From the IMG/VR virus record IMGVR_UViG_3300048835_000303, positions 1-49,304 of that record: a stretch of DNA of 49,304 nucleotides. One strand, 5' to 3'. The DNA comes from a virus. Shown piece after piece: positions 1,846 through 43,807 of this stretch (position 1 is the stretch's first letter; each line of letters opens with the position of its first letter). The position numbers were made by a program, and so were the translations under genes. The notes under the pieces were generated by a model, which was not told the DNA's origin, made no database searches, and was given only the letters and a program-made list of their open reading frames with translations.

Positions 1846-1862
1846 AAAAACTCTCGCGTCAA

Positions 1863-1889
1863 GGTCATAAATGCGCCCGCATTATGACC
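1863..1889. promoter_or_regulatory. Palindromic operator candidate before excisionase-like gene
   Basis: The arms GGTCATAA (1863-1870) and TTATGACC (1882-1889) are perfect complements and extend inward through TGCG/CGCA with a one-base bulge. The site lies in the 104-bp gap between the integrase operon and the excisionase-like gene, where a regulator would bind. Transcript folding is an alternative. Confidence 0.5.
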
Positions 1890-1949
1890 CTGACGCCGCT
1901 CGAACTCACGCTGAAACTGCGCACCACACCCAACCGTGGAGCGCGTGAC

Positions 1950-2213: not shown

Positions 2214-2222
2214 GAGGGCGAT

Positions 2223-2898: not shown

Positions 2899-3033
2899 AG
2901 CTCCGACCGCTACCAGTCTGAGCACCGGCATGGAAGATGATAACCCAAGTCGCGCGCGTGCGTCTGCACCGCTCGCCCGTCCGTGCCCTGCCCACCCTAT
3001 GCGGTCGGTCTCCCAACCTTGGAGATCGACAAC
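2797..3033 (+). other. Structured leader upstream of primase gene
   Basis: This stretch has a hairpin CGCCCGG (2802-2808) with CCGGGCG (2824-2830), then about 200 bases with no convincing gene before the primase start, which has a GGAGAT ribosome site. P4-type satellites carry a regulatory RNA leader before their primase operon. The analogy is positional and no promoter is claimed. Confidence 0.35.
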
Positions 3034-5169: not shown

Positions 5170-5469
5170 TGATCTCCATGACTCCCTATATGACGATGAT
5201 GACGATCATGACGATCATTTGGCTAACGCGGGAAAAGTGTCAAAAGGATAAGGATGGGCGCGCGTTGCGCGCTGACACATTCGGGTGACGGGCGGGAACA
5301 TCGTCATGATCGTCATCATCGTCATGGGTCGGAAGTCGTCGCCTTTGCTTCGGCTCCCGTTACGAGCCAGAGAACCGGCCGCGCTCCGGTCGCGCGGGTC
5401 CTTCCTGGGGAACCCGCCTCGAGAGTGGTCGAGGCATCGGAATTTCGCTAGGGTCGGGCTGCATCCTAG
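5170..5469. other. Non-coding interval holding the iteron repeat
   Basis: 300 bases without a convincing gene. Apart from the iteron inverted repeat it contains a perfect palindrome TGCATC-CTA-GATGCA (5460-5474) at its right edge, overlapping the most upstream possible start of the next gene. That palindrome could be an operator if translation begins at 5509. Confidence 0.5.
5190..5325. repeat. 26-bp perfect inverted repeat of 9-bp iterons (origin candidate)
   Basis: Arm 5190-5215 consists of about three tandem copies of the 9-bp unit ATGACGATS. Arm 5300-5325 is its exact reverse complement over all 26 bases, with 84 bp between. The site follows the primase/ATPase genes directly. In P4, PICI and plasmid replicons such iterons are bound by the replication protein, so this is the best origin candidate in element 1. 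Confidence 0.65.
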
Positions 5470-5508
5470 ATGCAACACCATTTACAAGATGCTGAATCGG
5501 TTGACGAT

Positions 5509-6192
5509 ATGACAAACGCGCAGTCGGATCTGTCGAAACTGGGCGCAAAGTTAAGCCCTCCGCCCCTGCCTTTCGGCGAGGGCGAGGTAAGCGTCGTCCG
5601 CCTCCGGCCCGCCGATGTGGCGCGCCTTCTGGGGTGCTCCCGCGCACGTGTGAGCCAGCTTGTTAAGCAAGGCAAGATATCGGCGTTCGCCGACGGGTCG
5701 ATCGACCCGAGCAGATGCGCCGCGGAGCTGATCCGATCCGACCCCAAGGGCGCGCGATCGAAGATCCTGACCAGCATACGATCTGAACTCGACGAAGCCC
5801 AAGGCCAGGCGGTCGAGGCGTTGATGCTGCGCGATGCGATGGCCCGCGAGCGTGACCGCCTCGCCGCGGAGCTCGCCGACGTGCGCGAGGTTCTCCGGTC
5901 GATCGCGCACGCCTGGTTGACCGCCGAATATTGGTTGAACGCCTTGGACGCCACCACCCGCGCCCGAGCCGCCACTGCTGCGCAGACTGCGACAGACCTT
6001 GAAGCCGCGTTCGACCAGGCGGGCGCCGCCGCCCTCGCCGCCGCTCTCCCGGAACTCTTGGCGGGTGGCCCCGACCCGGACCTGATTGCGTCGCTTGCGG
6101 CGGTCGACCCGGCCGGCCCTTGGCTGTCCCCACGTGGGGGCATGCCGCGCTGCGCGGGTCCTTCTGAAGCCCCACCCGACGCGGGTAATTAG
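5509..6192 (+). CDS. Nu1/terminase-small-subunit-like HTH protein
   Basis: 227 aa from ATG 5509; an alternative ATG at 5470 adds 13 residues but overlaps a palindrome. The segment around RPADVARLLGCSRARVSQL (about residues 31-49) is a MerR/Nu1-type winged helix-turn-helix, followed by KQGKISAFADGSID, the wing. A long helical region, probably coiled coil, follows to about residue 185. Nu1-type proteins bind cos/pac DNA for packaging, and satellites often carry their own small terminase to divert helper capsids. A plain DNA-binding regulator is the alternative. Confidence 0.6.
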   Translation: MTNAQSDLSKLGAKLSPPPLPFGEGEVSVVRLRPADVARLLGCSRARVSQLVKQGKISAFADGSIDPSRCAAELIRSDPKGARSKILTSIRSELDEAQGQAVEALMLRDAMARERDRLAAELADVREVLRSIAHAWLTAEYWLNALDATTRARAATAAQTATDLEAAFDQAGAAALAAALPELLAGGPDPDLIASLAAVDPAGPWLSPRGGMPRCAGPSEAPPDAGN

Positions 6193-6268
6193 AACCGCGG
6201 AGTTTGGCTAGGTAACGGGGTTTTTGCTTGTGGTTTGGGATCACAAAACAAGGCGTTAGGAGTAAGCG

Positions 6269-6766
6269 ATGAGCGAAGTCGACGTGTTTGAACAGGTGAA
6301 GGTTAAAACTCACGTGAGTTCCGATCCGATCGCCGACCTTCTCCTCCTCGCCGCCAAGCTGGAGGCCGCGGGGGCCGAACCAGGGAGCCCCGAGCATCGG
6401 TTCGTCGTCGGGATGCGCGCCTACGTTGCTGGCGTGAGCGCGACCCTGGAGGGGGCGCTCGACCTGGTTGGAGCCCGGGGCATCAGCGACGCGCGCCGCC
6501 GCCACCACATGGCCCGCCGCGCGGAGGATCTCGCCGCCGCGCTGCGCCTGATGCCAGGGGCGAGCGACTGGCAGCGCGCCAAGGCCCTTGCTGCGGAGGT
6601 CTCACGATTCGAGGGCCAAGTGTGGCCGCGCTGGCGAGGCATGGAGGCTCCGCCCGCAAACGCCTCCGACGTGCGCGTCCTGCTGTTCCGTGCGCGCAAA
6701 TCCGGGCCGCTTCCCGCAACCGCCCCCGGGCTGCGCAAGGCCGCCGCCCGCGCGCAAACTGGCTGA
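6269..6766 (+). CDS. Hypothetical helical protein
   Basis: 165 aa, preceded by AGGAG seven bases before the ATG. Predicted mostly alpha-helical, rich in Ala, Arg and Leu, with no motif I recognise. It lies between the Nu1-like gene and the capsid protease and may belong with the packaging or morphogenesis functions. Confidence 0.7.
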   Translation: MSEVDVFEQVKVKTHVSSDPIADLLLLAAKLEAAGAEPGSPEHRFVVGMRAYVAGVSATLEGALDLVGARGISDARRRHHMARRAEDLAAALRLMPGASDWQRAKALAAEVSRFEGQVWPRWRGMEAPPANASDVRVLLFRARKSGPLPATAPGLRKAAARAQTG

Positions 6767-6830
6767 CGGGTTTTCGGTTTGCGCCGCTCGGTCGATGATG
6801 AACGCACTCCCGAACGAGGCAACTCAAGAC

Positions 6831-7961
6831 ATGTTCGACCTATCGACAGCGACACCCTGGGCCTGCGATGCAGGCGCCTTCCGAGACATCGCCGAGGCGG
6901 CGGACAACGCCATGCGCGCAACCGGCATCGACGCCATCGAGGCCGCGCTGCGCCCCGTCACCCGGCCCCCGGTTGCGCCGCGCGCGGCCGCGTCCGGCAC
7001 GGCCGTGATCCGCGTCCTCGGCCCCATCGCCCGGCGCAAATCGTGGGTTACGGAGCTGCTGGGTTGGACGCATCATGACGGCATCCGAGACCAGCTTGCG
7101 ACCGCGAACGCGGATCCCGCGGTATCACGAATCGTATTCGAGGTCGACTCGCCTGGTGGAGTCGTCTCGGGCGTCTCCGACACGGCCGACCTGATCCGCC
7201 GCTCCGCCAAGCCGACCGTGGCTTTCATCGACGGCATGGCCGCCTCCGCCGCCTATTGGCTCGCCTCCGCCGCCGACACCATCGTGACCAGCAAAAGCGC
7301 GACGCTCGGCTCCATTGGCATCGTGGCGACGTGGCGCAGCGATCCGAACCGGCCCATCACCATCATCTCCTCGCAGAGTCCCATGAAAAACGCCGACCCA
7401 TCGACCCGCGACGGCCGCGCAGAACATCAACGCGTGGTTGACGATCTCGCCGCCATCTTCGTCAGTGACGTGGCGCGATACCGCGGCAAGACCCCGCAGC
7501 AAGTCATCGACACGTTCGGCCGCGGCGGCCTGCTGGTCGGGGCAAGCGCCGCCGCCGCCGGGATGGCGGATCAGGTCGGCAGCTTCGCCGACGCCCTGAG
7601 CGCCGCGCCGACGCTCCGCGCCGGCACCGCCGCGAAACCGATGCAGAGCCCGGCCGCGCGGATGAATGCCACGATCGAGGACCTCGTGCAGGGCGGCATG
7701 GACCGCCCGCTCGCGGTCCTGCAGGCCGCGCGGGATAACCCCGATCTGGTCGCGCAGCTCGCCCCCAAGGCGCCGCCGCGCGAGGATCCGCGCGTCCTGG
7801 AACGCTACGAGGCCGCGCTCGCCCGCCTGGTCGCCGCCGGCACGCCCGCCGCCGTGGCGCCGCTGACGCTCGCCAGAACCGAACCCGACTTAGCCGCAGC
7901 CGGCGCCCGCGCGGCCCGCGAGGCGGCCGACAACGTAAAAGGGATCATCCATGGCTACTAA
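6831..7961 (+). CDS. S49-family peptidase (phage capsid protease, lambda C/SppA-like)
   Basis: 376 aa from ATG 6831; earlier in-frame ATGs at 6795 and 6798 are possible. Diagnostic motifs are FEVDSPGG (103-110), the nucleophile region MAASAAYW with S139, and LGSIGIVATW (159-168), all typical of the SppA/lambda-gpC group. In tailed phages this ClpP-fold protease cleaves scaffold and portal during prohead maturation. The C-terminal third could be a built-in scaffold or adaptor. No portal or capsid gene is found in this element, so it may act on a helper phage's proheads or have another role. Confidence 0.88.
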   Translation: MFDLSTATPWACDAGAFRDIAEAADNAMRATGIDAIEAALRPVTRPPVAPRAAASGTAVIRVLGPIARRKSWVTELLGWTHHDGIRDQLATANADPAVSRIVFEVDSPGGVVSGVSDTADLIRRSAKPTVAFIDGMAASAAYWLASAADTIVTSKSATLGSIGIVATWRSDPNRPITIISSQSPMKNADPSTRDGRAEHQRVVDDLAAIFVSDVARYRGKTPQQVIDTFGRGGLLVGASAAAAGMADQVGSFADALSAAPTLRAGTAAKPMQSPAARMNATIEDLVQGGMDRPLAVLQAARDNPDLVAQLAPKAPPREDPRVLERYEAALARLVAAGTPAAVAPLTLARTEPDLAAAGARAAREAADNVKGIIHGY

Positions 7962-8565
7962 AGCATCCCCCCTCTTCGGGCCGCTCAACGCCCTCCGCGC
8001 CGCGCTGTCGACGGCGACCCGCGACTACAACGCCGCGCTGGCGGAACTTGAGAGACTCAAACGCGAGCGCGATGAGATCGCCCAAGCGCCTTGTGCCCGC
8101 GCCGATCTGATCGCGGAATTGGAGCGATGGACCGACAGGATTGCCGCCGAGTACGAAGATGCGTTGGACAACCGCCTTATGCTGTTCGCGGAAGTCGGCC
8201 CAGACCGCCTCGCGCGCGAGCTCGACCCCTCGGGATTCTCATCTCTGCGCGACCTCTTCAGCTTGGTCCGAACCAACCGAGGGAGCATCGATGACCTCAA
8301 AGACCAGCGCACCGCGAGCGGCGGCGCGCTGGTCTACCTGGCCGGCCCCGACCGCGTTAAGGCCCTGCTGCGCGCGCGCGTGGAGGCCCTGGACTTCAAG
8401 GACGGTCTGCCCGCCGCCGCACGCCGCGCCCGCATTGCGGAGCTGAACGCGCAAATCCAGGCCGTAGAGGACGAGCTCGAAAGCATGCGCGAGGCCCTGC
8501 GCGCCTCCGGGCTCGCGGTTCCTGCCCCCACACCCGCCCCGAGGCCGCTGACGCCTCGCATCTGA
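7951..8565 (+). CDS. Coiled-coil hypothetical protein
   Basis: 204 aa, overlapping the protease gene end by 11 bases. Residues ~15-60 and ~150-190 are heptad-like Leu/Ala/Glu/Arg segments expected to form coiled coils. A decoration or scaffold role would suit its place after the protease, but there is no sequence proof. The C-terminus is a Pro-rich tail. Confidence 0.7.
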   Translation: MATKASPLFGPLNALRAALSTATRDYNAALAELERLKRERDEIAQAPCARADLIAELERWTDRIAAEYEDALDNRLMLFAEVGPDRLARELDPSGFSSLRDLFSLVRTNRGSIDDLKDQRTASGGALVYLAGPDRVKALLRARVEALDFKDGLPAAARRARIAELNAQIQAVEDELESMREALRASGLAVPAPTPAPRPLTPRI

Positions 8566-8693
8566 CCTTTGGCGCCCGCGTGGCTGGTCACCCGCGGGAA
8601 CAACCGCCCGCCGTGGGGCGTTAAATCGGCTTCGCGCCGGCCGAAGAACGGCAAAGCCGGCAACCCCTTCCCCGTCGCCCTGGAGCGCCTCGC

Positions 8694-9047
8694 TTGACCA
8701 CACTCAGAATTCCGCCGATCCGAGACGGCGCCGACCGCACGATCCCGGCGAGTGCCGAAATCGTCCTGATGCGAAAGCCCCGGGCGTCTACCGAAGCGTG
8801 GCGCGAGATCATCGTTTTCCGCAATGACGACGGGAGCCTCCTGCAGGAGCATACCGTTCGCGCTGTACCGCCCGATGGGCTGCTGATTCCGCTTGTCCCC
8901 CAAGACCAGATCAAGACCGGCGAGCCCGGGGAGGAGACCGCGTACAGCGTCACCGTCCGTTGGGCGCACGGCTCGGAGCGCTATCGCGTGGAGATCCCGG
9001 AAAGCGCCGACGTGCTCGACCTCGCCGACGTTGCAAGCGCGTGGTGA
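8694..9047 (+). CDS. Hypothetical beta-rich protein
   Basis: 117 aa starting at TTG 8694, supported by GGAGCG about seven bases upstream; the frame is closed upstream by TAA and no ATG or GTG fits. The alternation of hydrophobic and charged residues (EIVLMRK, EIIVFRN, YSVTVRW, YRVEIPE) predicts a small beta-sandwich. Possibly a structural or decoration protein, family unknown. Confidence 0.65.
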   Translation: MTTLRIPPIRDGADRTIPASAEIVLMRKPRASTEAWREIIVFRNDDGSLLQEHTVRAVPPDGLLIPLVPQDQIKTGEPGEETAYSVTVRWAHGSERYRVEIPESADVLDLADVASAW

Positions 9048-9056
9048 CATGCTCGG

Positions 9057-9093
9057 CTTGCCCCAAAACGGAAGACTTCCGTTTTGGGACAAG
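9057..9093. repeat. 37-bp palindrome, copy 1
   Basis: 18-base arms separated by one A, form CTTG-N4-AAAACGGAAG. One mismatched pair at the fifth base. It directly follows the stop at 9047, so it could also terminate that transcript. Confidence 0.85.
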
Positions 9094-9134
9094 GTTGGTC
9101 TGCGGATCTGCATCAACAATAACGCCTTGAATTT

Positions 9135-9162
9135 GTTGATAATCCAAAGTTGGATTAACAAC
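9135..9162. repeat. 28-bp palindrome with unrelated core
   Basis: 13-base arms (GTTGATAATCCAA and its complement with one mismatch) and a 2-base loop. It is A+T-rich compared with its surroundings and does not share the AAAACGGAAG core. Confidence 0.75.
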
Positions 9163-9255
9163 CCTCCGGCCAGCGCCGACCGCGAAGCCGCCGCCGATGG
9201 ATCGAGGCGCACCCCTACCACGCCCACACGACAAGCAACCGTCTCGAACCGCCTT

Positions 9256-9286
9256 GGGGAAAAACGAAAGCCTTTCGTTTTTCCCC
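9256..9286. repeat. 31-bp palindrome, variant copy 2
   Basis: Perfect 15-base arms GGGGAAAAACGAAAG with a single C loop. The core differs from the other copies by a G-to-A change that is matched by a C-to-T change in the opposite arm. Confidence 0.85.
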
Positions 9287-9292
9287 GCCGCC

Positions 9293-9329
9293 CTTGATCA
9301 AAAACGGAAGACTTCCGTTTTTGATCAAG
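9293..9329. repeat. 37-bp palindrome, copy 3
   Basis: Perfect 18-base arms CTTGATCAAAAACGGAAG, single A loop. Only 6 bases separate it from copy 2. Confidence 0.88.
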
Positions 9330-9431
9330 ACAACCCGCCGGCACCTGACCACGAAGCAGCGCGCGGTGATTGCTGCGGAGCTGGCGACGATGACCAAAGC
9401 GCAAGCAGGCGCAAAAGGTGGTCGGTCAGGC

Positions 9432-9457
9432 AAGCAAGGGCAAAATTGCCCTTGCTT
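9432..9457. repeat. 26-bp palindrome
   Basis: Perfect 12-base arms AAGCAAGGGCAA with loop AA. Shares the interval but not the AAAACGGAAG core. Confidence 0.8.
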
Positions 9458-9500
9458 AGACGACGCACTCAGCATCGACCAAGCAACCGTCTCGAATCGC

Positions 9501-9537
9501 CTTGGGCAAAAACGGAAGTCTTCCGTTTTTGCCCAAG
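9501..9537. repeat. 37-bp palindrome, copy 5
   Basis: Perfect 18-base arms CTTGGGCAAAAACGGAAG, single T loop. Lies at the same place in the repeat unit as copies 2 and 3. Confidence 0.88.
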
Positions 9538-9611
9538 ACAACCCGCCGCTTGTCGGATCTTTTTTGCACCGGACCCTTGCGCGCCGCGCGTGCGAGGTCT
9601 ACGCTTGCCAC

Positions 9612-9785
9612 ATGTCCGAAGTAACGAAGCAACCCAAAAGCAACCCCAGCCGACAGGCTGCGCACCGGGACCGCATGCGCGCGTCAGGTCTGGTGCCGAT
9701 CACCGAATGGATCCCGCCCGAATCCAAAGAGCTGGTGCGCAATCTTTGCAGGCGATTGAGGGAGACGAAGAAGACGACGAAGTAG
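9612..9785 (+). CDS. Small protein resembling MazE-like DUF3018 antitoxins
   Basis: 57 aa from ATG 9612. The pattern RQAAHRDRMRASGLVPITEW resembles the conserved start of DUF3018 (MazE-like antitoxin; typical form AHRxRLRxxGLRPVxxWVP). No toxin gene follows, so it may be an orphan or a DNA-binding protein of the ribbon-helix-helix type. No strong ribosome site is seen. Confidence 0.5.
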   Translation: MSEVTKQPKSNPSRQAAHRDRMRASGLVPITEWIPPESKELVRNLCRRLRETKKTTK

Positions 9786-9863
9786 CAGTAGAAGCGGACC
9801 CCGACCCGGTTGCACCCGGATCGAGGCCCTGACCACCACCCAACCTGTAACGGAGGTTCGGCA

Positions 9864-10049
9864 ATGGCTACCCGCCATGATACCAACACGCGCGCCCGTC
9901 GTTTCGAGCGCGTCATCCGCCGCGCGATCGGCACCGGCAACCCCACCACCTTGCGCGCTGTCGCATGCCTTGCGCATGACGATGGGCACGCCCCGGTGCA
10001 GGTCCGCGCCGAGGCCGCGCTGCGCTTCGTGGGGGGTCGCCATGTGTGA
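9864..10049 (+). CDS. Small hypothetical protein
   Basis: 61 aa from ATG 9864 with CGGAGG eight bases upstream. Basic and helical. The next gene starts inside its end, so the two are likely coupled. Unknown family. Confidence 0.6.
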   Translation: MATRHDTNTRARRFERVIRRAIGTGNPTTLRAVACLAHDDGHAPVQVRAEAALRFVGGRHV

Positions 10050-10239
10050 CCCGACCCAAGCGCCGCTGTTCGTCTGGTCCTATGCCTTGCTCAAGCAACT
10101 GCCGAGCATGTACTCGATCGCGAGCAACTACGGCGGCATCGACTTGACCGAGGACGACGAGATCCGTGAAGCCGTTCGCGCCGCGGTCGAGCCGATCCTG
10201 CGTCGGCGTATCCAGGCCGCACGGGAGGCGCAGTCATGA
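10042..10239 (+). CDS. Small hypothetical protein
   Basis: 65 aa from ATG 10042, overlapping its neighbour by 8 bases. Hydrophobic first third, then an acidic segment and a basic amphipathic helix. Unknown function. Confidence 0.55.
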   Translation: MCDPTQAPLFVWSYALLKQLPSMYSIASNYGGIDLTEDDEIREAVRAAVEPILRRRIQAAREAQS

Positions 10240-10295
10240 GCGACGACATCCGCAAAGAGAATGAGCTCGATAACCTCGAGGAGCAGACAGCGTGA
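10236..10295 (+). CDS. 19-residue micro-ORF
   Basis: ATG 10236 overlaps the previous stop by ATGA and its own stop overlaps the GTG start at 10292. The acidic peptide (MSDDIRKENELDNLEEQTA) exactly fills the gap between two coupled genes, so it may serve as a translational relay. Too short to be certain. Confidence 0.4.
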   Translation: MSDDIRKENELDNLEEQTA

Positions 10296-10648
10296 CCGAC
10301 ACCACTCCAAACCCGTCAACCTGCACCGGCATGTCCGAGCTGTTCAACCTCGCATGGAGCTTGTCGGGTATTACCCGAACGCTCGACATGGAGGGAGGGG
10401 AGCCCGCCGAGTCGGCGAGCGACCGTGACCGCATTCATGGGCTGACCTGCGCCGCCCACCTGCTGTCGACCCGCCTGCTGGAGCTTGTCCTTGACTTCAG
10501 CCCGGCCCTGACCCGCCGGCACGACGAAGCCCTTGCGCGGATCGGCACGCAGACCGGGGAGAGGCCCGCGGAGGTCGCCGCACGCCTGCTGTGCGAGGCC
10601 CTGGAGGCGGACATCGCGCGGCACGAAGCCGAGCAGGCCGCGGCATAG
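10292..10648 (+). CDS. Hypothetical helical protein
   Basis: 118 aa from GTG 10292. Alpha-helical throughout, with two conserved-looking Cys (in the segment HGLTCAAHLL and LLCEALEAD). Unknown family. Position within the run of small genes suggests an accessory function. Confidence 0.6.
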   Translation: MTDTTPNPSTCTGMSELFNLAWSLSGITRTLDMEGGEPAESASDRDRIHGLTCAAHLLSTRLLELVLDFSPALTRRHDEALARIGTQTGERPAEVAARLLCEALEADIARHEAEQAAA

Positions 10649-10695
10649 ACCCAACCGCCCGGATCCGTCCGGGCGCAACAATGAGGGACCGAGAC

Positions 10696-10917
10696 ATGAT
10701 CGCCGTCATCCTGCAACTCGCCGCTATCGCGCTCGGTCTCTGGATCGGGGCCGCCACCGAATCATGGTGGGTCGGTCTGGGGTCCGTCGCGTTCCTGTGG
10801 CTGCTCGCACTGCTCGCCATCGGCACCGTGCGCGTCATTGTCGGGCCGCACACTGCCGAGGCAAGACGATTCGGGGAGATCCGCAGCACCGGAAACGATC
10901 AAGAGGGCAAAGACTGA
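10696..10917 (+). CDS. Small membrane protein with two transmembrane segments
   Basis: 73 aa from ATG 10696 (GAGGGA upstream; ATG 10681 also possible). Two hydrophobic segments, IAVILQLAAIALGLWIGA and WWVGLGSVAFLWLLALLAIG, separated by a short turn, followed by a charged tail. The topology suits a small holin-like or inner-membrane accessory protein. No family recognised. Confidence 0.6.
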   Translation: MIAVILQLAAIALGLWIGAATESWWVGLGSVAFLWLLALLAIGTVRVIVGPHTAEARRFGEIRSTGNDQEGKD

Positions 10918-10968
10918 AGACGGCCGCCGAGTCCGGCCCGCCGCTCGACACCCGATCAGGAGGGAGCG

Positions 10969-11077
10969 ATGTCCATCGACAACACCACGAAGCGCCGAAC
11001 GTGTGGCAAGAAACGCACGGTTCCGGTCAATCGACCGGAACCGTGTCCATCGACAACACCACGATCTTCTGTGGTGG
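10969..11077 (+). pseudogene. 5' fragment of a gene cut by the Mu-like insertion
   Basis: ATG 10969 follows an excellent AGGAGGGAG site, and the frame runs as MSIDNTTKRRTCGKKRT up to the proposed phage left end. Beyond it the frame continues only into phage end sequence. A second copy of its first codons, starting GTG, lies at 11043. I infer a gene of element 1 interrupted by the phage. Confidence 0.45.
10971..11064 (+). repeat. Two direct 20-bp repeats flanking a hairpin
   Basis: TCCATCGACAACACCACGA and its preceding base occur at 10971-10990 and 11045-11064. Between them is a 12-bp-stem hairpin ACGGTTCCGGTC/GACCGGAACCGT (11017-11044, 4-base loop). Both copies follow a potential start codon (ATG or GTG). 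Confidence 0.7.
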
Positions 11078-13334: not shown

Positions 13335-15452
13335 TTGGCCGGGTTGCCCGCCATGCCTGCCACGCCAAGCGCGGTTATCCGCGCTGCCAAGCGCAACGGC
13401 TGGAAGTCGCGCAAGCGCGAGTCGGGCAAGGGCCTCGAATACGCCTTCGCCAGCCTCCCCGTCGAGACCCAAAACGCACTGATCGCTCGGGACTTCGCGG
13501 CCAAGCCGCTTGCCGAGCCGGCGGAGACGGCCCTCGCGGTCATCCCCGAGACGCAGACGCTGCCGGCGGTGCGCGAGCCGCGTGCCGTGAAGACCAACGC
13601 CGAGCTGAAAGGCTGGCAGCGCGAGATCCGCGACGCCCGCGCCTTGGTGCTCGCCCTGGTCGACGACCTGACTCACTCGCTTGGGACGACCCGCAAGGCG
13701 GCGGAGCGGGTCGAGGCGATGGCCAAAAGCGGCACGCTCTCGCCGATCCACGCCGAAGCGGTAGTGCGTGCCAACGCCCGCAACGGCGGGGCGCGCACGG
13801 TCTCGGCGGCGACCTTGTATCGGTGGCTGCAACTGCGGGCCATCAGCGTGCATGCGCTGGCCCCGGATGCCGGCCCGGAGCGCGACCAGCCGGCGTGGAT
13901 TCCGTACTTCCTGGAGCTCTACCAGGACCCGGCGAAGCCCTCGATCGCGGCCTGTCTGCGGCGCTTGCGTCGGGAGCCGCCGCCGGGCGTGGAGCTGCCG
14001 TCGGAGCGGTCCGCGTCGAGCTGGATCAACGACCGGCTGCCCAAATCGATCACGCAATACGGGCGGATGGGGACGCGGGCGCGTCGGGCGATTCGGCCCT
14101 TCACCCGCCGCACCACCGACGGGCTGTGGCCCATGGACATCGTCGCGGTCGACGGGCACGCCTTCAAGGGGTACGTGGCCCACCCGGCGTCCGGAAAGCG
14201 CATCCATCCGGAGGTGACGACCTACGTCGACATCGCCACGCGGCGGATCGTCGGCTTCTCGGTCTGGGTGAGCGAGAGCGCCTATGCGATCTGGCTGGCG
14301 CTGCGGCAGATGGTGCTCAACCCGGATGTCGGGATCCCGGCGATGCACTACAGCGACAACGGCGCCTACAAGGGCGAGCAGCATCGGTTTTTGCTGGATC
14401 GGCTCGGGATCACGCAGGAGTTCAGCCGGCCCGGCAACCCGCAGGCCAACGGCGTGATCGAGCGCATCAATCGCACCCTGTGGCTGCCGTTGGCGAAGCA
14501 GCTCCCGCTCTACAGCGGCAAGGACATGGATAAGGAGGCATTCAAGCGCCGCAAGGATCGCGCGGACAAGACCGGCGCCGGGCTGGTGGGTTACGCGGAC
14601 TTCGTGGCCGGGTGCGCCGAGGCCGTGGCCGAGTACAACGCCCGCGAGCATTCCAGTCTGCGCCGCGGACGCGAGCGCCTGAGCCCGAACGCCGCCTGGG
14701 CGCGTGCCGTCGAGGAGGGGTGGCAGCCTACGACGCTGGACAGCGACGACCTGCACGACCTGCTGCCGTCCGAGGTCCGCACCTGCCTGCGCTGCGAGGT
14801 CGCGCTGCCATGGGGGAGGTACTTCAGCCTCGCGCTGGAGCCGTACGAGGGCCAGCGGGTGCATGTCGGCTACGAGCCGTCGGACAACGCGCGGGCCTGG
14901 ATCAGCGATCAGGATGGCCGGCTGATCTGCGTGGCGGAGCTGGGTGCGAATCAGCGGGCCTATCAGCCGACGACCGCGATCGAGAAGGCCCGCGAAAACC
15001 GCGGGACGCAGAAGGTCAAGCGCCTGGAGCGCCGGATCGAGCGGGCCAGGGCGGAAGAGACCTCGGTGATCGAGGGGCAGGTGCTGGAAGGCGAGGCATC
15101 GGACCTGCCCTATCTCGGCTTCTCGGCGGAGCCGTCGCTGACACCAGCACTGACGGCGATCCCCTCGACGGCGCTGGATCCGTCCGCCGTCTCGGCGCAG
15201 CCGGAGCCGGCCCGCGTCGCCGCGGAGCTGCCCAAGGCGCGCCCGGTGCGCAGCTACATCGACGAGCTCGACAACGACGCGAGCCGCTACGAGGTGCTCA
15301 AGACCTTGCGCGTGCGGATGGCGGCCGGCGACGCGCTCACCGAGCGCGAGCGGCAATTCTTCACGGCGTTCGGCACCAGCGAGTACGTGCGGATCACGGA
15401 GAAATTACAGGCGGATTGGGACGCGCGATGGGCGCAGACCGCCGCCGGATAA
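13335..15452 (+). CDS. Mu-type DDE transposase (MuA)
   Basis: 705 aa from TTG 13335. The N-terminal Mu DNA-binding domain (GLPAMP...GWKSRKR...EYAFASLP) is followed by end-binding HTH regions and the catalytic core. The acidic triad is readable as D273 (VAVDGHAF), D341 (HYSDNGAY) and E376 (GVIERINRT), a D-35-E spacing. The C-terminal region contains the beta-barrel and a tail expected to contact MuB and ClpX. It should catalyse integration and replicative transposition. The upstream ATG 13309 is one base out of frame: adding a base near 13325 would give MRSWTPASELAGLPAMP, the expected MuA start. The N-terminus is therefore either shortened or frameshifted. Confidence 0.93.
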   Translation: MAGLPAMPATPSAVIRAAKRNGWKSRKRESGKGLEYAFASLPVETQNALIARDFAAKPLAEPAETALAVIPETQTLPAVREPRAVKTNAELKGWQREIRDARALVLALVDDLTHSLGTTRKAAERVEAMAKSGTLSPIHAEAVVRANARNGGARTVSAATLYRWLQLRAISVHALAPDAGPERDQPAWIPYFLELYQDPAKPSIAACLRRLRREPPPGVELPSERSASSWINDRLPKSITQYGRMGTRARRAIRPFTRRTTDGLWPMDIVAVDGHAFKGYVAHPASGKRIHPEVTTYVDIATRRIVGFSVWVSESAYAIWLALRQMVLNPDVGIPAMHYSDNGAYKGEQHRFLLDRLGITQEFSRPGNPQANGVIERINRTLWLPLAKQLPLYSGKDMDKEAFKRRKDRADKTGAGLVGYADFVAGCAEAVAEYNAREHSSLRRGRERLSPNAAWARAVEEGWQPTTLDSDDLHDLLPSEVRTCLRCEVALPWGRYFSLALEPYEGQRVHVGYEPSDNARAWISDQDGRLICVAELGANQRAYQPTTAIEKARENRGTQKVKRLERRIERARAEETSVIEGQVLEGEASDLPYLGFSAEPSLTPALTAIPSTALDPSAVSAQPEPARVAAELPKARPVRSYIDELDNDASRYEVLKTLRVRMAAGDALTERERQFFTAFGTSEYVRITEKLQADWDARWAQTAAG

Positions 15453-15535: not shown

Positions 15536-16291
15536 ATGAATGATCGATCGACACCTGTCACGGGGGGCGGGTCCCCGACCGTGGCGCCGCTCACCAACGT
15601 GGGGCTGACGCTGGGTGCGCTGGACCGCGCCAAGGCGCGCTCCGCCGGGCTGCCCGGCATCGTGGTCCTGCACGGCCCGAGCGGCTGGGGCAAGAGCACG
15701 GCGGCAGCCTATGCCGCAGCCCAAACGCGGGCCTACTACGTGGCCATGCAGTCGGTGTGGACGCGTCGGGCCTTCCTCGAGGCCGTCGCGCGGGAGATGG
15801 GCCTGGCCGTGACCGGGACCATCAGCACCATGGCCGGGCAGGTCGCCGAGCAGTTGGTCCTCTCGGGTCGCCCACTCCTTATAGATGAGGCGGACGTCCT
15901 GGCCGAGCGCGACGGCGGCGCGGGCGTCATCAAGGACATCTACGAGAGCACGCTCGGGACCATCCTGCTGATCGGCGAGGAGCGTCTGCCCCAGAAGCTC
16001 GCTCGGTACGAGCGCCTGCACGGGCGGGTGCTCGAATGGGTCGGGGCGATGCCGGCGAGCCTGGCGGATGCCCGCGCGCTCACGCGCATCTACTGCCCCG
16101 GGGTCGAGGTGGCCGACGACCTGCTCGCGGAGCTGGTGAAGCGGGCCAAGGGCTCGGTGCGGCGCATCGCGGTCAACCTGGACCGGGTCCGCAGCGAGGG
16201 CGCGAAGATGGGCTGGACGCAGGCCGACCTGGGGCTGTGGGGCGAACGGGCGATCTACACCGGCGAGCCGCCGGCGCGGAGGGTCGGGTGA
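15536..16291 (+). CDS. MuB-like target-selection ATPase
   Basis: 251 aa. Walker A GPSGWGKST (47-55) and Walker B PLLIDEAD (113-120) lie in an AAA+ fold, with a helical C-terminal domain ending in a winged region. In Mu, the B protein binds target DNA in an ATP-dependent manner, delivers it to MuA and gives target immunity. The gene follows A by 83 bp, the standard order. The stop overlaps the next start (TGATG). Confidence 0.92.
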   Translation: MNDRSTPVTGGGSPTVAPLTNVGLTLGALDRAKARSAGLPGIVVLHGPSGWGKSTAAAYAAAQTRAYYVAMQSVWTRRAFLEAVAREMGLAVTGTISTMAGQVAEQLVLSGRPLLIDEADVLAERDGGAGVIKDIYESTLGTILLIGEERLPQKLARYERLHGRVLEWVGAMPASLADARALTRIYCPGVEVADDLLAELVKRAKGSVRRIAVNLDRVRSEGAKMGWTQADLGLWGERAIYTGEPPARRVG

Positions 16292-37099: not shown

Positions 37100-37474
37100 A
37101 TGAGCACCCCCTCCCTGCTGCACATCTTCCGCGCCGGCACCTACCAGGCGATGGCCGGGCAGAGCGTGACCCTCACGCCTGCCGATCTGGCCGCGACCGC
37201 TGCGGCCTACGACCCCGCGCGTCACGAGGCGCCGCTGGTGGTGGGGCACCCCGTGGACAACGGCCCCGCCTGGGGCTGGGTGTCCGGGCTGGCGGCCGAA
37301 GGCGAGGACCTTCGTGCCGCCCCGCGCGATGTTGCCGCGGAGTTTGCCGAGGCCGTGCGTGCCCGGCGCTTCGCGAAAGTATCCGCCTCATTACATGAAG
37401 CCGGGTCGCCCGACCAACGCCGAGGAGATCATCCAGCGCCGCGCGATGGGCTCGCATTTGTACAGCGACCGTGA
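37100..37474 (+). pseudogene. Head protease/scaffold gene I, 5' fragment
   Basis: From ATG 37100 (ATG 37091 also possible) the frame encodes the beginning of the Mu I protease: FRAGTYQAMAGQSVTLTPAD, AAAYDPARHEAPLVVGHP, then GWVSGLAAEGEDL and FAKVSASLHEAG. It then leaves homology and ends at 37474. The usual length is about 350-370 residues; only ~100 are protease-like. The following DNA encodes the capsid in another frame, so the gene was cut by a deletion near 37390. Confidence 0.8.
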
Positions 37475-38521: not shown

Positions 38522-38947
38522 ATGTACGCCGACGTTGCCGCCTTCCGCGCCCGCTTCGACCGGCCCGCCAACCCGGAGCTCACCCAGCTCACCGGCGGTC
38601 CGGGAGCGGAAGGCCCGGACGAGGCCCGCCTCGTCCAGGCCCTGACCGAGGCCAGCGGGGAGATGGACGACGCCTTTCGCGCCCGCTACGCCGTGCCCCT
38701 GACCGGCTACGGCCCCGCGACCGCGGAGCGCCTCGCGCAGGTCTGCTGCGACATCGCCCGCTATCGCCTCTGGTCCGATGCAGCCTCCGAGGAGGTCGTG
38801 CGCCGCTACGAGCAAGCCTACGCCTGGCTGCGGGATGTTGCGCGCGGACTCATGATCCTGGACGTCCTCGCCCCCGGAGCCGCCGGCGCACCCGCGCACA
38901 GCACGCCGAGCCCGACGTTCAGCCCCGACACTCTGTCCGATTACTGA
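38522..38947 (+). CDS. DUF1320 connector protein (Mu gp36-like)
   Basis: 141 aa from ATG 38522. FRARFDRP..., then LTEASGEMDDAFRARYAVPLTG and CCDIARYRLWSDAASEEVVRRYEQAYAWLRDVARG are the DUF1320 pattern. These proteins are head-tail connector subunits. In Mu the next gene is gp37 (DUF1834); here the DGR cassette lies between them. Confidence 0.88.
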   Translation: MYADVAAFRARFDRPANPELTQLTGGPGAEGPDEARLVQALTEASGEMDDAFRARYAVPLTGYGPATAERLAQVCCDIARYRLWSDAASEEVVRRYEQAYAWLRDVARGLMILDVLAPGAAGAPAHSTPSPTFSPDTLSDY

Positions 38948-38986: not shown

Positions 38987-39262
38987 ATGCTTGAGCGCGC
39001 CAGCCGATACACCGTCCCGGCCGACGAGTCCTTGATTCTCACGCCACGCGGCGCGCCCTGGAGCCTCTCCGTCTCCCCTGGCGAGGGCGGCACCGTCACC
39101 GTCGCCGTCACCGTCTCCGACCCCGCGGACGACGCCGCCGTGTGGCATGCGCTCGCCGCTGTTCCGCTCGCCGCGGCGACCCTCTACCTCTTCTCCGGCC
39201 CGGTCTCGGGCGTGCGGATCAGCGCCGTCGATGCGCCCGCTGTCGCGGAGCTGATGGTATGA
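38987..39262 (+). CDS. Small beta-rich hypothetical protein in the DGR cassette
   Basis: 91 aa from ATG 38987. Alternating hydrophobic strands (GGTVTVAVTVSDPADD). May be a structural accessory to the following surface proteins. Overlaps the next start by ATGA-type GTATGA. Confidence 0.6.
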   Translation: MLERASRYTVPADESLILTPRGAPWSLSVSPGEGGTVTVAVTVSDPADDAAVWHALAAVPLAAATLYLFSGPVSGVRISAVDAPAVAELMV

Positions 39263-39696
39263 GCATCAAGGTCTTCGGATTTTGGGGCAGCGTCGCTGCC
39301 GACGATCCTCGGCTGGCTGCGGCCGGGACCGCGCTTCAGCCCGAAAACCTCAACCCACTCGCCACCTACACAGAGTCCGGCGCGACACTCGAGCCCGTCG
39401 GCGGCGTGCTCACGCTCCCCCTCGACGGGCGGGTCCGGGGGCTCACGCTCACCGGCGACCTGACGGGCGTCGTCCTCGTCGCGCCGGCGCCGCCCGTCTG
39501 CGGCTCGGTCATTTGCTACGTACTGCAGGACGCGACGGGCGGGCACCTGTTCCCGATCCCGGCCGCCTGGTATTGGCCCGATGCGACCGTGACCGATATC
39601 GCGCCGGAGCCCGGCGCGCTGACCGAGCTGATCCTCAACACCACGCCGGCCGGAGTCGTGATCGCGCGCGCCACGGTGCTGGGTGTGCCCGCATGA
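39259..39696 (+). CDS. Beta-rich structural protein upstream of DGR target
   Basis: 145 aa from ATG 39259. Strand-rich and Gly/Pro/Thr-rich, with LTGDLTGVVLVAPAPPVCGSVICYVLQD. It directly precedes and overlaps the variable protein gene. It may form the base or chaperone on which the variable protein sits. Family not recognised. Confidence 0.6.
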   Translation: MSIKVFGFWGSVAADDPRLAAAGTALQPENLNPLATYTESGATLEPVGGVLTLPLDGRVRGLTLTGDLTGVVLVAPAPPVCGSVICYVLQDATGGHLFPIPAAWYWPDATVTDIAPEPGALTELILNTTPAGVVIARATVLGVPA

Positions 39697-41045
39697 TGGC
39701 CCGTCGCCTCATGGGCTCTCGCGGAGCGCGTCGCCTCGACGCCATCGGTGTTCAGGGTGAGATGGGGTTCGGCGTCGGCGTCTGCCCGCCAGCCCTGCTG
39801 CCCGCGGGCTTTGTTCCGCTGGCCGGCTACGATGACCCGCAGTCCGGCAACTACGGCAATTACCTCTACGGGGTCTCGCAATGCGTGTGGGTGCCGGCGC
39901 ACTACTACCGCATCGGCCATCCCGAGAGCCCGCGCTATGCCGCGTACGGGCTCGATGCGGTCGATATTGCGCCGCTGAGCGCCTACGCGTCCGACGCGTC
40001 CGCAAATCTCGACGGCTACATCCTCGACCGTTCCTTCATCGACGGCGGGATCGTGCAGCCCGGCGTCATGGTCGACAAGTACACGGCCTCGCCGTCCGCG
40101 GACAACACGCACGGCGTGTCGGTCGCCGAGGGCGTACCGATCTCGCTGACGACGGCCTCGACGTATACCCGCTCCCAGACAATGGCCGGCTGCGTCGGCC
40201 AGTATCACGATGCGCTGACGCTCAGCCGCGCTCGCGGCGGGGCGTGGCAATGCGCCAGCGCCTTCGTGTACGCGATGCTCGCCCGACTTGCCATGGCGCA
40301 CGGGCAAGCGGCGACCGGCCCCGAGGCGTGCGCCTGGTACGACGCGGCGGGGCTGACCAACTGGCCGAAAGGGGCCAACAACAACGCCCTCGGCGACAGC
40401 TCGGAGCCGTCGCTGCTGTGGCTCTCGGCCGGGGATGCGGGTGCGGCTGCAAAGCCGCGCACGGGATCCTGCGCCGTGCCCGCCAAGGCGGCCCACAACG
40501 GCCAGGCCAACGGCATCATGGATCTCAACGGCGGCATGCGGGAGGTCGCAATCGGCGTGACGACCCCCGGCGTGTCGGCGGTCGACGCGGCGGCGGCCTC
40601 CAATGGCGACCTCTGGGTGTTGCGGCCGGAGGTGGCGACCGCGACACTGACCCCCGGCTGGGCCGGGCCGACCGACGCTTGGCAGTCCGCAGAGACCATC
40701 GGCGCGCTGTACGAAAGGGCGCAGGGCGCCATGTGGTGGGAAAATGCGGCTGCTTGGGTGCGTCTCGGTAATGGCGCCGAGCAGGTCTTTTCGGGGGCGA
40801 CTTCCGGCCTGGAGCGTGTGCGCACGGCGCTGGGTATCCCGCGACCGGCCGGCGCCAGTGCCGGCGGCGCCGCGCGGTTCGGTAATGACGGCATCTATCA
40901 ATACTGGCGCCGCAACCTTGCGCTTCTGGTCTCCGGCTATTGGGGCAACCCCACGATCGCCGGGGCGGGTTGCCGGGATTGGTCTACCTATCGGACGAAT
41001 GCCCACAACACGTTTTCGTTCCGTGCGTCCGCCTATGTACTGTGA
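39693..41045 (+). CDS. DGR variable protein (C-type lectin/FGE-fold surface protein)
   Basis: 450 aa from ATG 39693. The C-terminal ~300 residues have the formylglycine-generating-enzyme/C-type-lectin-like layout, with GGAWQCASAFVYAMLARLA, WPKGANNNALGD, NGIMDLNGGMREV and the final GCRDWSTYRTNAHNTFSFRA. The last ~40 residues are the variable region, copied from the template repeat 598 bp downstream with adenine-specific changes. It is probably displayed on the virion and decides receptor binding. The N-terminal part is likely the anchoring domain. Confidence 0.9.
   Translation: MMARRLMGSRGARRLDAIGVQGEMGFGVGVCPPALLPAGFVPLAGYDDPQSGNYGNYLYGVSQCVWVPAHYYRIGHPESPRYAAYGLDAVDIAPLSAYASDASANLDGYILDRSFIDGGIVQPGVMVDKYTASPSADNTHGVSVAEGVPISLTTASTYTRSQTMAGCVGQYHDALTLSRARGGAWQCASAFVYAMLARLAMAHGQAATGPEACAWYDAAGLTNWPKGANNNALGDSSEPSLLWLSAGDAGAAAKPRTGSCAVPAKAAHNGQANGIMDLNGGMREVAIGVTTPGVSAVDAAAASNGDLWVLRPEVATATLTPGWAGPTDAWQSAETIGALYERAQGAMWWENAAAWVRLGNGAEQVFSGATSGLERVRTALGIPRPAGASAGGAARFGNDGIYQYWRRNLALLVSGYWGNPTIAGAGCRDWSTYRTNAHNTFSFRASAYVL
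40916..41037 (+). repeat. DGR variable repeat (VR)
   Basis: 122 bp that match TR (41514-41635) except at 11 positions. Nine of the 11 are positions where TR has A (changed to T, G or C), the mark of mutagenic retrohoming. Two are not A (T to A, G to T). The first 22 bases are identical. Confidence 0.94.
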
Positions 41046-41054
41046 CTGGGCAGA

Positions 41055-41070
41055 GTCCGCGGTAGCGGAC
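41055..41070 (+). other. Hairpin downstream of VR (DGR target-recognition structure)
   Basis: GTCCGC (41055-41060) and GCGGAC (41065-41070) form a 6-bp stem with tetraloop GGTA, 9 bases after the stop of the variable gene. Such cruciforms follow VR in phage DGRs and promote target recognition, as shown for BPP-1. Confidence 0.75.
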
Positions 41071-41089
41071 GGGATGGAGGCTGCTGCGC

Positions 41090-41491
41090 ATGCCTAAGCC
41101 GATCGACCCGAATGCGGCGATCTTCTTCAAATGCAGGGAGGTGATTTTGCTGCTCAACGTGCACTTGAATCACTTCCCGCATCACGAGAAGTACGGGCTG
41201 AGCCAGCAGATCCGAACGGCGGCTTACGATGTCTATGCTTTGCTGGTGGAGTGCCGCAAGCGCTATCACAACAAGACCAGCCTCCAAAAACTGGACGTGA
41301 GGCATGAGCAGCTGCGGGCGCTGGTGAACTTGGCGTTCGAGCTTGGGTATTACGACTTTCAGCACCACAAGCGCGGCCGGTCCGAGCCGGAAGCGCTGCG
41401 ACGCTACACGGCGATCTCGATCCTGGTCAACGAGCTGGGGGCGATGATCGGCGGGTGGATTCGGTCGCTGCGTCAGCAGTGGTCGCAATAA
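41090..41491 (+). CDS. avd: Avd, accessory variability determinant
   Basis: 133 aa from ATG 41090. Helical protein with HLNHFPHHEKYGLSQQIRTAAYDVYALLVECRKRY, typical of the four-helix-bundle Avd family. It binds the DGR RT as a pentamer and is needed for template-primed cDNA synthesis. It lies between VR and TR, the usual position. Confidence 0.9.
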   Translation: MPKPIDPNAAIFFKCREVILLLNVHLNHFPHHEKYGLSQQIRTAAYDVYALLVECRKRYHNKTSLQKLDVRHEQLRALVNLAFELGYYDFQHHKRGRSEPEALRRYTAISILVNELGAMIGGWIRSLRQQWSQ

Positions 41492-41513
41492 GGGCAGGCC
41501 ACGACGTGATGGG

Positions 41514-41635
41514 CCTTGCGCTTCTGGTCTCCGGCAATTGGAACAACACCTCGATCGCCGGGGCGGGTTGCCGGAATTGGAATACCTATCGGACGAATGC
41601 CAACAACACGGTTTCGTTCCGTGCGTCCGACTATG
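41514..41635 (+). repeat. DGR template repeat (TR)
   Basis: 122 bp homologous to VR. In the VR reading frame it holds many AAT/AAC codons (for example two adjacent AAC codons twice), which give diverse residues after A mutation. It lies between avd and the RT, on the same strand. Confidence 0.94.
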
Positions 41636-41754
41636 ACTCCCGCCAACCTGATAGCCCACACATGGGCAGACTGGAGACATAGGGATGGTCCTGTCCTGCG
41701 GTATGGCGAAATCAGCGGGCCTCTGAGCTCCAGTATCCAGCGGAGAACGTTCTC

Positions 41755-42774
41755 ATGCCCACCCGTTTCGGTCGCTTGTATGAGCAGGTGGCCTCTTTGG
41801 AGAGCCTGTACGCCGCCTTCCTGAAGGCGCGAGCGGGCAAGCGATGCAAGGCGGCCGTGGAGGTATTCGAGCGCAACCTCGGGGCGAATCTCGCCGCCCT
41901 TGCCGACGAGCTGTCCGAGGGGCGCTATCGCCCGCGCGGCTACCGCAAGTTCGAGGTGCGCGAGCCCAAGCCCCGCGTGATCTATGCCCCGGAGTTCCGC
42001 GACACGATCGTGCAGCACGCCGTTTATGCCGTCGTCTACCCGATCTTCGATCGGACCTTCATTCACGACGCCTACGGCTGCCGGGTCGGGAGAGGGCATC
42101 ATCGCGCGGCGGACCAAGCGCAGCGGTATTTGCGCGCGAGCGCGCCGGACTCCGTGACGCTCCAGCTGGATGTGCGCAAGTTTTTCTACCGGATCGATCG
42201 CGGGGTCCTGATGACGCAGGTCGAGCGCAAGATCAAGGATCCGCGCTTGCTCGCACTCATGGCCGCGTTCTGCGACTACGACGAGCCGCGCGGCCTGCCG
42301 ATCGGCAACCTGCTCAGCCAGCTGTTCGCCGGAATCTACCTGCATGATCTGGATGTGCACGTGAAGCGCGTCATGCGCATTCGCCGCTATGTGCGCTTCG
42401 TCGACGACTTCATCCTGTTCGATCTGGATCGCTCGCAGGCGCGCGCGGCGCTGCAGGAGATCGAGGCGTTTCTTGCCGATCGGCTCGGGCTGGAGTTGTC
42501 CCGCTACACCATCGCGTCCGTGCGACGCGGAGTGAACTTCGTCGGCTTCCGCACCTGGCGCCGCACGCGTTGCGTGCGCAAGCATAGCTTGTGTCGTTTC
42601 TCGCGGCGGCTGAAGGAGGGTGATGTCCCCGCCCTGGTGTCGATGCTCGGCAACGCACGCGCGACCGCATCCTTTCGTCATTTCGCGGGCCGGCTGTACG
42701 CGCAGCGGCCCGACCTGGTGCCGCGCTTGCCCGCGGCGACCCGCGCCAGCCTGGAGGCCGCATGCTGTTCATGA
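41755..42774 (+). CDS. DGR reverse transcriptase
   Basis: 339 aa from ATG 41755. Motifs: LQLDVRKFF (136-144), IGNLLSQ (183-189) in place of the QG-x3-SP of other RTs, a DGR feature, and YVRFVDDF (212-219) with D217 and D218 as metal ligands. The compact length without RNase H fits DGR RTs. It copies TR RNA with error at adenines and the cDNA replaces VR. The next gene starts inside its end. Confidence 0.95.
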   Translation: MPTRFGRLYEQVASLESLYAAFLKARAGKRCKAAVEVFERNLGANLAALADELSEGRYRPRGYRKFEVREPKPRVIYAPEFRDTIVQHAVYAVVYPIFDRTFIHDAYGCRVGRGHHRAADQAQRYLRASAPDSVTLQLDVRKFFYRIDRGVLMTQVERKIKDPRLLALMAAFCDYDEPRGLPIGNLLSQLFAGIYLHDLDVHVKRVMRIRRYVRFVDDFILFDLDRSQARAALQEIEAFLADRLGLELSRYTIASVRRGVNFVGFRTWRRTRCVRKHSLCRFSRRLKEGDVPALVSMLGNARATASFRHFAGRLYAQRPDLVPRLPAATRASLEAACCS

Positions 42775-43268
42775 CGCACGACCACGCTACCCCGCCGTCC
42801 CACGTCGTTGTTGACGAGCATCGCTACCCTGTGGCTCAGCTGATCCGCAACGAGGATATCCACCGCCTCGCCAGTCTGGGCGTGCTGCGGCACATCACGG
42901 CCGAGGGCTCGGCGCCGCTCGGCTATACCCCGTGGCAGCTCGCCGAGGACGCGCAGGGGCCGCACTACTACCGCGAGCCGGCCGGCACGCCGGAAGAGCG
43001 CGCCGCCGCCGTTGCCGCGATCGCCGAGCAGCCGCCGACGTCCGTGTCTGCCCTGCAGGGGATGCGGGCGGTGAAGGCAGCCGGCCTGGTCGGGGCGTTC
43101 CTGGCCTGGAAGGCGGCGCTGGATCCGGTCGCCGACTTCGAGGCGCTGGCCTTCCTCGACAAGGCGCAGACCTGGGAATACGACGACCCGATCCTCAATG
43201 CCGCGCTGGTTGCGGTGGGCGCAACGGATCGCAAGGCGGACCTGTTCCGGCTCGCCGCGACGCTCTAA
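42762..43268 (+). CDS. Hypothetical protein at the end of the DGR cassette
   Basis: 168 aa from ATG 42762, overlapping the RT by 13 bases (ATG 42771 also possible). Contains HRYPVAQLIRNEDIHRLASLGVLRH and PYYR-type segments of a small alpha/beta domain. Coupling to the RT suggests it belongs to the cassette, or else to the tail region. Function unknown. Confidence 0.65.
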   Translation: MLFMTHDHATPPSHVVVDEHRYPVAQLIRNEDIHRLASLGVLRHITAEGSAPLGYTPWQLAEDAQGPHYYREPAGTPEERAAAVAAIAEQPPTSVSALQGMRAVKAAGLVGAFLAWKAALDPVADFEALAFLDKAQTWEYDDPILNAALVAVGATDRKADLFRLAATL

Positions 43269-43279
43269 TCGGCCGATCC

Positions 43280-43302
43280 GGATAACGTCGGTTAGCTGAT
43301 CC
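43280..43302 (+). promoter_or_regulatory. 23-bp dyad motif, copy 3 (PP candidate)
   Basis: GGATAACGTC-GGTTAGCTGATCC, inner dyad TAAC-GTCG-GTTA. It precedes the tail genes by 58 bases, as Mu PP precedes later tail genes. Confidence 0.65.
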
Positions 43303-43360
43303 CACCTCCCGCGGGCGCCACACTGGCGCCCATGACGCCCTCCCGCAACACCCCGGCGCG

Positions 43361-43807
43361 ATGAGCGCCCCCAATCTGCTCGCCCTCGAGCCCGCGCTGG
43401 TCGCGCGCCTGCGCGAAGCGCTGCCCGCAAGCGATGCCGTCATCCGCACGGCCGAAGACGCGGAGGCGATTCTCAAGGGCGGGGCGCGTGCCCCGTCCGT
43501 TTACGTGATCTATGCCGGCGGGCTGCCCGTGGAGGCGCTCGACGCCAAGCGCAAACCCTACCCCGTGCGGGTGCGTCAGGATTGGCTGATCGTCGCGGCC
43601 TCCCGCAACGTCGCGAGCCCCGAGGGCTGGCCGGGGCGCGCCGGAGCCGGCACGCTGGCAGGGGCGGCGCTCGCCGTGCTGCTCGGCTGGACCCCCGAGG
43701 GGGCGCTGCGCCCCCTGCAACTCATCGCCATGCCGGACCCCGGCCTGGTCGCCGGGGCGCAGCTCTGCCCCTTCGTGCTCTCCACCGAAATCCTCCTCGG
43801 AGTCTAA
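43361..43807 (+). CDS. Tail terminator-like protein (DUF1834, Mu gp37-like)
   Basis: 148 aa from ATG 43361. LVARLREALPASDAVIRTAEDAEAILKGGARAPSVYVIYAGG, then VRQDWLIVAASRN and FVLSTEILLGV match the DUF1834 shape. Position before the tail tube fits a tail-end or terminator subunit. Confidence 0.8.
   Translation: MSAPNLLALEPALVARLREALPASDAVIRTAEDAEAILKGGARAPSVYVIYAGGLPVEALDAKRKPYPVRVRQDWLIVAASRNVASPEGWPGRAGAGTLAGAALAVLLGWTPEGALRPLQLIAMPDPGLVAGAQLCPFVLSTEILLGV

Follow-up and report, generated by a model that had tools for sequence, protein, structure and literature searches.

An Avd-type diversity-generating retroelement between the head and tail genes of a predicted Mu-like prophage

Background

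The diversity-generating retroelement (DGR) of Bordetella phage BPP-1 has the gene order mtd-avd-TR-brt, in which TR is the template repeat; BPP-1 is not a transposable phage, and its record has an att site. DGRs have also been published in Mu-like phages, namely hankyphage p00, which carries a Mu-like transposase (PMC6199706), Mushu (PMC5883640) and YPCBV-1 (PMC9769972); BalMu-1 is a further example, known from its annotated record. The present work concerns a 49,304-nt stretch of viral DNA (IMG/VR record IMGVR_UViG_3300048835_000303, positions 1 to 49,304; hereafter the window, meaning the whole stretch at its full length), which contains a complete DGR. The locus is very probably a canonical Avd-type DGR that lies within the late operon of a prophage of the Mu-like kind and diversifies the 3' end of a gene for a lectin-fold variable protein (VP).

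Composition of the cassette

The cassette occupies window positions 39693-42774 and comprises the VP gene, the variable repeat (VR), a hairpin, avd, TR and the reverse transcriptase (RT) gene, in that order. An earlier reading made from the sequence alone had described a complete DGR with this arrangement, and each of its coordinates was upheld. The components are as follows:

39693-41045, plus strand: VP gene; 450 aa, TaqVP-type C-type-lectin/FGE fold
40916-41037, plus strand: VR; 3' end of the VP gene, a 122-nt repeat of TR
41014-41037, plus strand: homing end, similar to an initiation of mutagenic homing (IMH) site; invariant 3' part of VR, with a fixed C at 41032 against the TR A at 41630
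41055-41070, plus strand: hairpin/cruciform GTCCGC-GGTA-GCGGAC; 6-bp stem and GGTA (GRNA) loop, 9 nt 3' of the VP stop
41090-41491, plus strand: avd (accessory variability determinant); 133 aa, Pfam bAvd and PHROG 3206
41514-41635, plus strand: TR; 24 adenines, zero at third codon positions
41755-42774, plus strand: DGR RT; 339 aa, motifs IGNLLSQ and YVRFVDDF

The locus is thus a DGR, combining an RT of the DGR clade with the [IVL]GxxxSQ motif, an adenine-biased TR/VR pair, a lectin-fold VP, Avd, and a homing end with a hairpin. The RT matched Pfam RVT_1 (2.8e-14) and the PHROG RT family (5e-100), and its best match in the Protein Data Bank was the bRT of BPP-1 (8ub7, E-value 8e-51), followed by a group II intron RT (9.5e-25). 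A phylogenetic tree constructed by a quick method grouped the window RT with DGR RTs and split it from group II introns with a support of 100; hankyphage and Haboob, both on long branches, are not securely placed in this tree. The sequence-only reading had staked its interpretation on such a placement, and the RT indeed falls with the DGR RTs. Avd was identified by Pfam bAvd (9e-12) and by PHROG 3206, 'Avd protein of DGR' (8e-20).

The VP had no Pfam match and was assigned through an AlphaFold2 model (pLDDT 90, pTM 0.92), in which disorder was limited to residues 1-15. Using Foldseek, the model was most similar to TaqVP, the variable protein of a Thermus aquaticus DGR (5vf4, E-value 7.9e-14), and matched Mtd more weakly (2e-3 to 1.5e-2). 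An Rfam scan of 39600-43400 returned zero matches, and the predicted RNA folding of the TR region was no more stable than that of shuffled sequences (z -0.25).

Template and variable repeats

VR and TR form a direct repeat of 91% identity, the sole repeat of that size in the region, and neither the window nor contig L070, which overlaps it, contains a second VR. They differ at 11 positions, nine of which are TR adenines (24 A in 122 nt; hypergeometric p=4.6e-6), as the sequence-only reading had counted. One of the nine, the TR A at 41630 opposite the VR C at 41032, proved to be a fixed mark of the homing end and not a mutation; since the mark is common to 48 of 53 pairs from the family, eight of ten differences fall on adenines, and eight of the 23 remaining adenines have mutated. 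In the VP frame the TR adenines are distributed 13/11/0 over the three codon positions, and this confinement to positions 1 and 2 fits a template for amino-acid change. The two VR differences away from adenines, at 40953 and 41013, were not present in the relative L004/L078. Locus L078 is a prophage in the metagenome-assembled genome (MAG) of a Thiocapsa sp. with a block approximately 90% identical to the window, and L004 is a viral contig that equals it in RT, VR, TR and VP backbone and may come from an identical data source.

Relatives of the RT were drawn from viral contigs and genomes, and TR/VR pairs, which were found in most loci, were located with an adenine-tolerant scan. Among 53 non-redundant pairs, 676 of 1320 TR adenines were changed against 44 of 4707 other sites, a contrast whose direction is firm and whose size is somewhat inflated, as the scan penalised non-A mismatches more. 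An ordinary duplication that had acquired chance differences would account for the small number of differences in the window and for nothing further; it is refuted by the adenine bias, the presence of RT and Avd, and the recurrence of the same pattern in the 53 pairs, and its probability is considered negligible.

In the 48 pairs that carry it, the homing-end mark consists of a TR A opposite a VR C near the 3' end (GA in TR, GC in VR). A GRNA-loop hairpin at a roughly equal distance from VR was present in 19 of 61 loci, a count that includes the window and its near-copies, with stems that differ in sequence and are still complementary; hairpins with any loop would be expected by chance in approximately seven of the 61, and some of the loci are near-copies of one another. 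Together, the A/C mark and the covarying hairpin should be useful for finding such elements. A hairpin following VR is also known in BPP-1.

By analogy with BPP-1, RT and Avd would copy the TR transcript while misreading adenines, and the mutated cDNA would replace VR at the 3' end of the VP gene. Homing would begin in the invariant 3' end (C41032 opposite A41630), aided by the hairpin just downstream. The expected outcome would be a TaqVP/Mtd-type lectin with approximately 14 variable residues (23 mutable adenines, up to 7e13 sequences). The biochemical steps, as well as the virion location, receptor binding and host-range benefit suggested for VP, are modelled on what is known of BPP-1.

Diversification and selection among relatives

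Locus L078 has its own TR changes and shows 22 VR/TR differences, 19 of them at adenines. The comparison of the window with L078 extended to three small genes that flank the core cassette:

38987-39262, plus strand: x2; 91 aa, function unknown, 4-nt overlap with x3, travels with the cassette in L078
39259-39696, plus strand: x3; 145 aa, 4-nt overlap with the VP start
42762-43268, plus strand: x4; 168 aa, function unknown, follows RT and is the final gene of the block shared with L078

The dN/dS values were 3.1 for VR, 0.15 for the rest of VP, 0.06 for avd, 0.13 for RT, 0.32 for x2 and 0.10 for x4, and amino-acid identities were 73% for x2, 88% for x3 and 89% for x4. Judging from these ratios, RT, Avd and the non-VR part of VP are under purifying selection. 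A VP start farther upstream in the open frame, at 39282, was rejected; the upstream frame overlaps x3, and relative to L078 its changes fall mostly at codon positions 1 and 2 (dN/dS 3.2).

Closer comparisons were available within other groups of relatives. Loci L029, L031 and L034 share a single RT sequence and the same 800 nt of VP upstream of VR, and their VRs differ at 13-15 sites, all of which are TR adenines; between L050 and L064, 14 of 15 VR differences are at adenines. These patterns support diversification in close relatives and show the element type to be active. Past activity of the window element, as proposed from the sequence alone, is borne out by its adenine-biased VR/TR differences together with the VR divergence among relatives.

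Two further relatives were recorded during this survey. Locus L058 has a second TR match of 63 nt at 9088-9150 (eight of nine differences at adenines) within another VP-like frame 3' of RT, and is a probable two-target DGR. At L010 (1303-1422 and 1871-1990), TR contains only 14 adenines, and non-adenine sites account for 10 of the 17 VR/TR differences; this locus is possibly a decayed DGR.

Phage backbone, host and state of the window copy

The sequence-only reading had assigned the DGR to a Mu-like phage, and the presence of MuA, MuB and D3112-like head and tail genes in the window confirms it. The principal landmarks are as follows:

13335-15452, plus strand: MuA-type transposase; PHROG 310 (1.7e-132), Pfam Mu domains
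15536-16291, plus strand: MuB-type transposition ATPase; PHROG 296 (3.8e-56), 49% to D3112 B
37381-37392, no strand: deletion junction; 1.56 kb lost at the 8-bp repeat ATCCGCCT
38522-38947, plus strand: Mu gp36-type head-tail adaptor; left neighbour of the cassette, Pfam Phage_Mu_Gp36 (5e-24)
43361-43807, plus strand: tail terminator; right neighbour of the cassette, Pfam 6e-18

The Mu-type portal, F, G, gp36, an Ig-domain tail tube and the tape measure protein are present in a D3112-like order, and the Mu/D3112 head order (terL, portal, F, G, protease, major capsid protein (MCP), gp36) is kept, with protease and MCP truncated by the deletion. By its gene content, the window virus is a predicted D3112-type Mu-like prophage with a long non-contractile tail. 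Its right end lies beyond the contig, and its left end is likely near 11.0-11.1 kb, close to a 20-bp direct repeat, GTCCATCGACAACACCACGA, at 10971 and 11045. Positions 1-11000 of the window appear to belong to another element, with integrase, primase-like and head maturation protease genes. As RT relatives at 96% and 60% were found in Thiocapsa and Ectothiorhodospira, respectively, the host is likely a purple sulfur bacterium. The L078 phage may be Mu-like as well; no MuA was found in its MAG, but the phage runs off the contig end.

Two large frames were noted in related contigs. In L070, a frame of at least 1055 aa (2-3166, minus strand), 3' of the tape measure gene and consisting mostly of short tandem repeats of the RHGLAAGSA.. 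type, occupies the expected tail-tip region. In the Thiocapsa prophage, an F fragment is preceded by an open frame of 4714 codons (L104, 4598-18739, minus strand) that could encode a giant polyvalent phage protein.

Alignment with L078 showed that the 1.56 kb between two copies of ATCCGCCT has been lost, truncating the protease, removing the sequence between protease and capsid genes and leaving MCP without its N-terminus. Misassembly was rejected as the cause, the junction being shared exactly (100%) by L097, though L097 may not be independent. Both genes are intact in L078 and in L096, a 97% identical strain with frames of 331 aa for the protease and 353 aa for MCP.

Several points weigh against an element that still diversifies. 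The window copy probably cannot build heads unaided, given its capsid genes; VR is the same in the window and in L001, L002 and L003, which are assemblies of the same element (L002 and the window have three differences only, all outside VR), with no variation seen within the population; and the two persistent non-adenine VR differences hint at no recent homing. Identity of VR in related prophages had been named beforehand as evidence against activity, and it holds for L001-L003 but not for L078. All of this, including a deletion seen in two assemblies, would be expected of a relic that remains readable and has ceased to diversify within a defective prophage. Such a relic is nevertheless considered unlikely: RT, avd and VP retain intact frames, on which purifying selection has acted between the two lineages (dN/dS 0.06-0.15), and the deletion may be recent or limited to some copies, intact relatives of the window copy being in existence. 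The suggestion that the phage could switch hosts with each transposition cycle does not, in consequence of the capsid-gene deletion, hold for the window copy as it stands.

Placement of the cassette and virion location of VP

The gp36 adaptor and the tail terminator flank the cassette, which therefore occupies the head-neck section of the late operon and is not beside a tail fibre. These two genes, which are adjacent in D3112, are separated in the window by 4.4 kb containing x2, x3, VP, avd, TR, RT and x4. In L078 the block G-protease-MCP-gp36-x2-x3-VP-avd-TR-RT-x4 is arranged as in the window, and homology stops after x4, where spike, baseplate wedge, tail fibre and sheath genes follow (PHROG 3e-120 for the sheath); the tail of the window phage is non-contractile. 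A shared head block joined to unrelated tails suggests that the DGR stayed with the head module during tail exchange.

By analogy with BPP-1, the most likely role of VP is to bind cells from the virion surface, and two locations were weighed. VP may sit at the tip of a tail fibre or side fibre, attached by way of x3, in the manner of Mtd in BPP-1, with the gene position being incidental; the chances of this are put at about even. Viral DGR targets are annotated mostly as tail proteins (PMC8144416), and many fold matches of VP among viral models are tail collar fibres. In near RT relatives (L005-L014 and L079), the lectin domain seen in VP forms the C-terminal end of proteins of 830-900 aa, and in L006, whose N-terminus was tested, this end is tail-fibre-like. 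The window VP, however, has no such shaft: no N-terminal fibre or attachment domain was found in it, and only approximately 16 residues precede the lectin body, though x3 could stand in for such a domain. Protein x3 weakly resembles the C-terminal parts of tail-fibre proteins (PHROG 4549, E-value 0.03; PHROG 15437, E-value 0.18); it had zero matches to annotated phages up to E=1, and its matches among viral contigs were confined to its own lineage. The position of the cassette also speaks against a fibre tip, and retention of the head-plus-DGR block in L078 despite a wholly different tail is awkward for a tail-anchored VP.

Alternatively, VP may decorate the capsid or neck as a hypervariable head-side lectin that is inherited with the head genes whatever the tail type, a possibility judged less likely than not. 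It would explain the same block, at approximately 90% nucleotide identity, before both a siphovirus-type tail in the window and a sheath and baseplate in L078. Head-module DGRs also recur in the clade: that of L044 lies between the major head protein and head-tail connector genes, that of L064 adjoins the major head protein, and that of L082 (in a Rhodoferax MAG, on a contig that also carries MuA) directly follows G. The published Mu-like phage Mushu has a DGR target of the Hoc-like, capsid-decoration type (PMC5883640). Yet gene order is no proof of virion position, a single tail exchange may be coincidence, L078 is cut by the end of its MAG contig, and x3 is more fibre-like than decoration-like. 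Neither an Ig-repeat architecture nor a capsid-binding domain, as would mark a Hoc-like protein, was found in VP, which has a single TaqVP-type lectin body.

The fullest version of the head-side interpretation is put forward tentatively: the DGR would hypermutate a shaft-less capsid or neck lectin, be inherited with the head module, survive exchange between non-contractile and contractile tails, and have entered head modules several times in one RT clade. The placement raises the testable question of whether DGRs also diversify head-side virion proteins. If VP is indeed head-side, 'retargeting' would mean attachment to surfaces, mucus or cell coats and not the choice of a tail receptor.

Comparison with known systems

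The BPP-1 DGR shares with the window its gene order, its Avd type and a related VP fold, and the two RTs are 35% identical over 307 residues. It differs in having Mtd at the end of the structural genes, and the window VP is closer to TaqVP. The nearest RT in an annotated phage is that of Pseudomonas phage Bise (RT 50% and avd 56% identity to the window), whose record contains gp37-type and further Mu-like structural genes; Bise, however, has a contractile tail, and its DGR is at the end of the tail-fibre region. The DGRs of hankyphage, BalMu-1 and YPCBV-1 are likewise at the tail end, unlike that of the window, and the Mushu target is an Ig-repeat protein where that of the window is TaqVP-type. 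A further DGR-bearing Mu-like prophage possibly exists in the genome that holds L079 (G012, Ectothiorhodospira mobilis DSM 237), contig C3 of which carries, at 61919-62794 and 83695-85758, a second DGR-like RT (40% identity) and, approximately 21 kb from it on the same strand, a MuA gene.

Pseudomonas phage D3112 (Casadabanvirus) agrees with the window in MuA, MuB and the order of portal, F, G, gp36, tail terminator and Ig-tube genes, but is without a DGR. Among purple sulfur bacteria, the DGRs of Thiohalocapsa PB-PSB1 are cellular and tied to defence genes (PMC10907252), a setting unlike that of the phage DGR described here. A DGR in a Mu-like phage is already known, and what merits further attention is its head-neck placement here, together with the exchange of tails. 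The window adds to the DGR-bearing Mu-like phages an apparently undescribed lineage, probably of purple sulfur bacteria.

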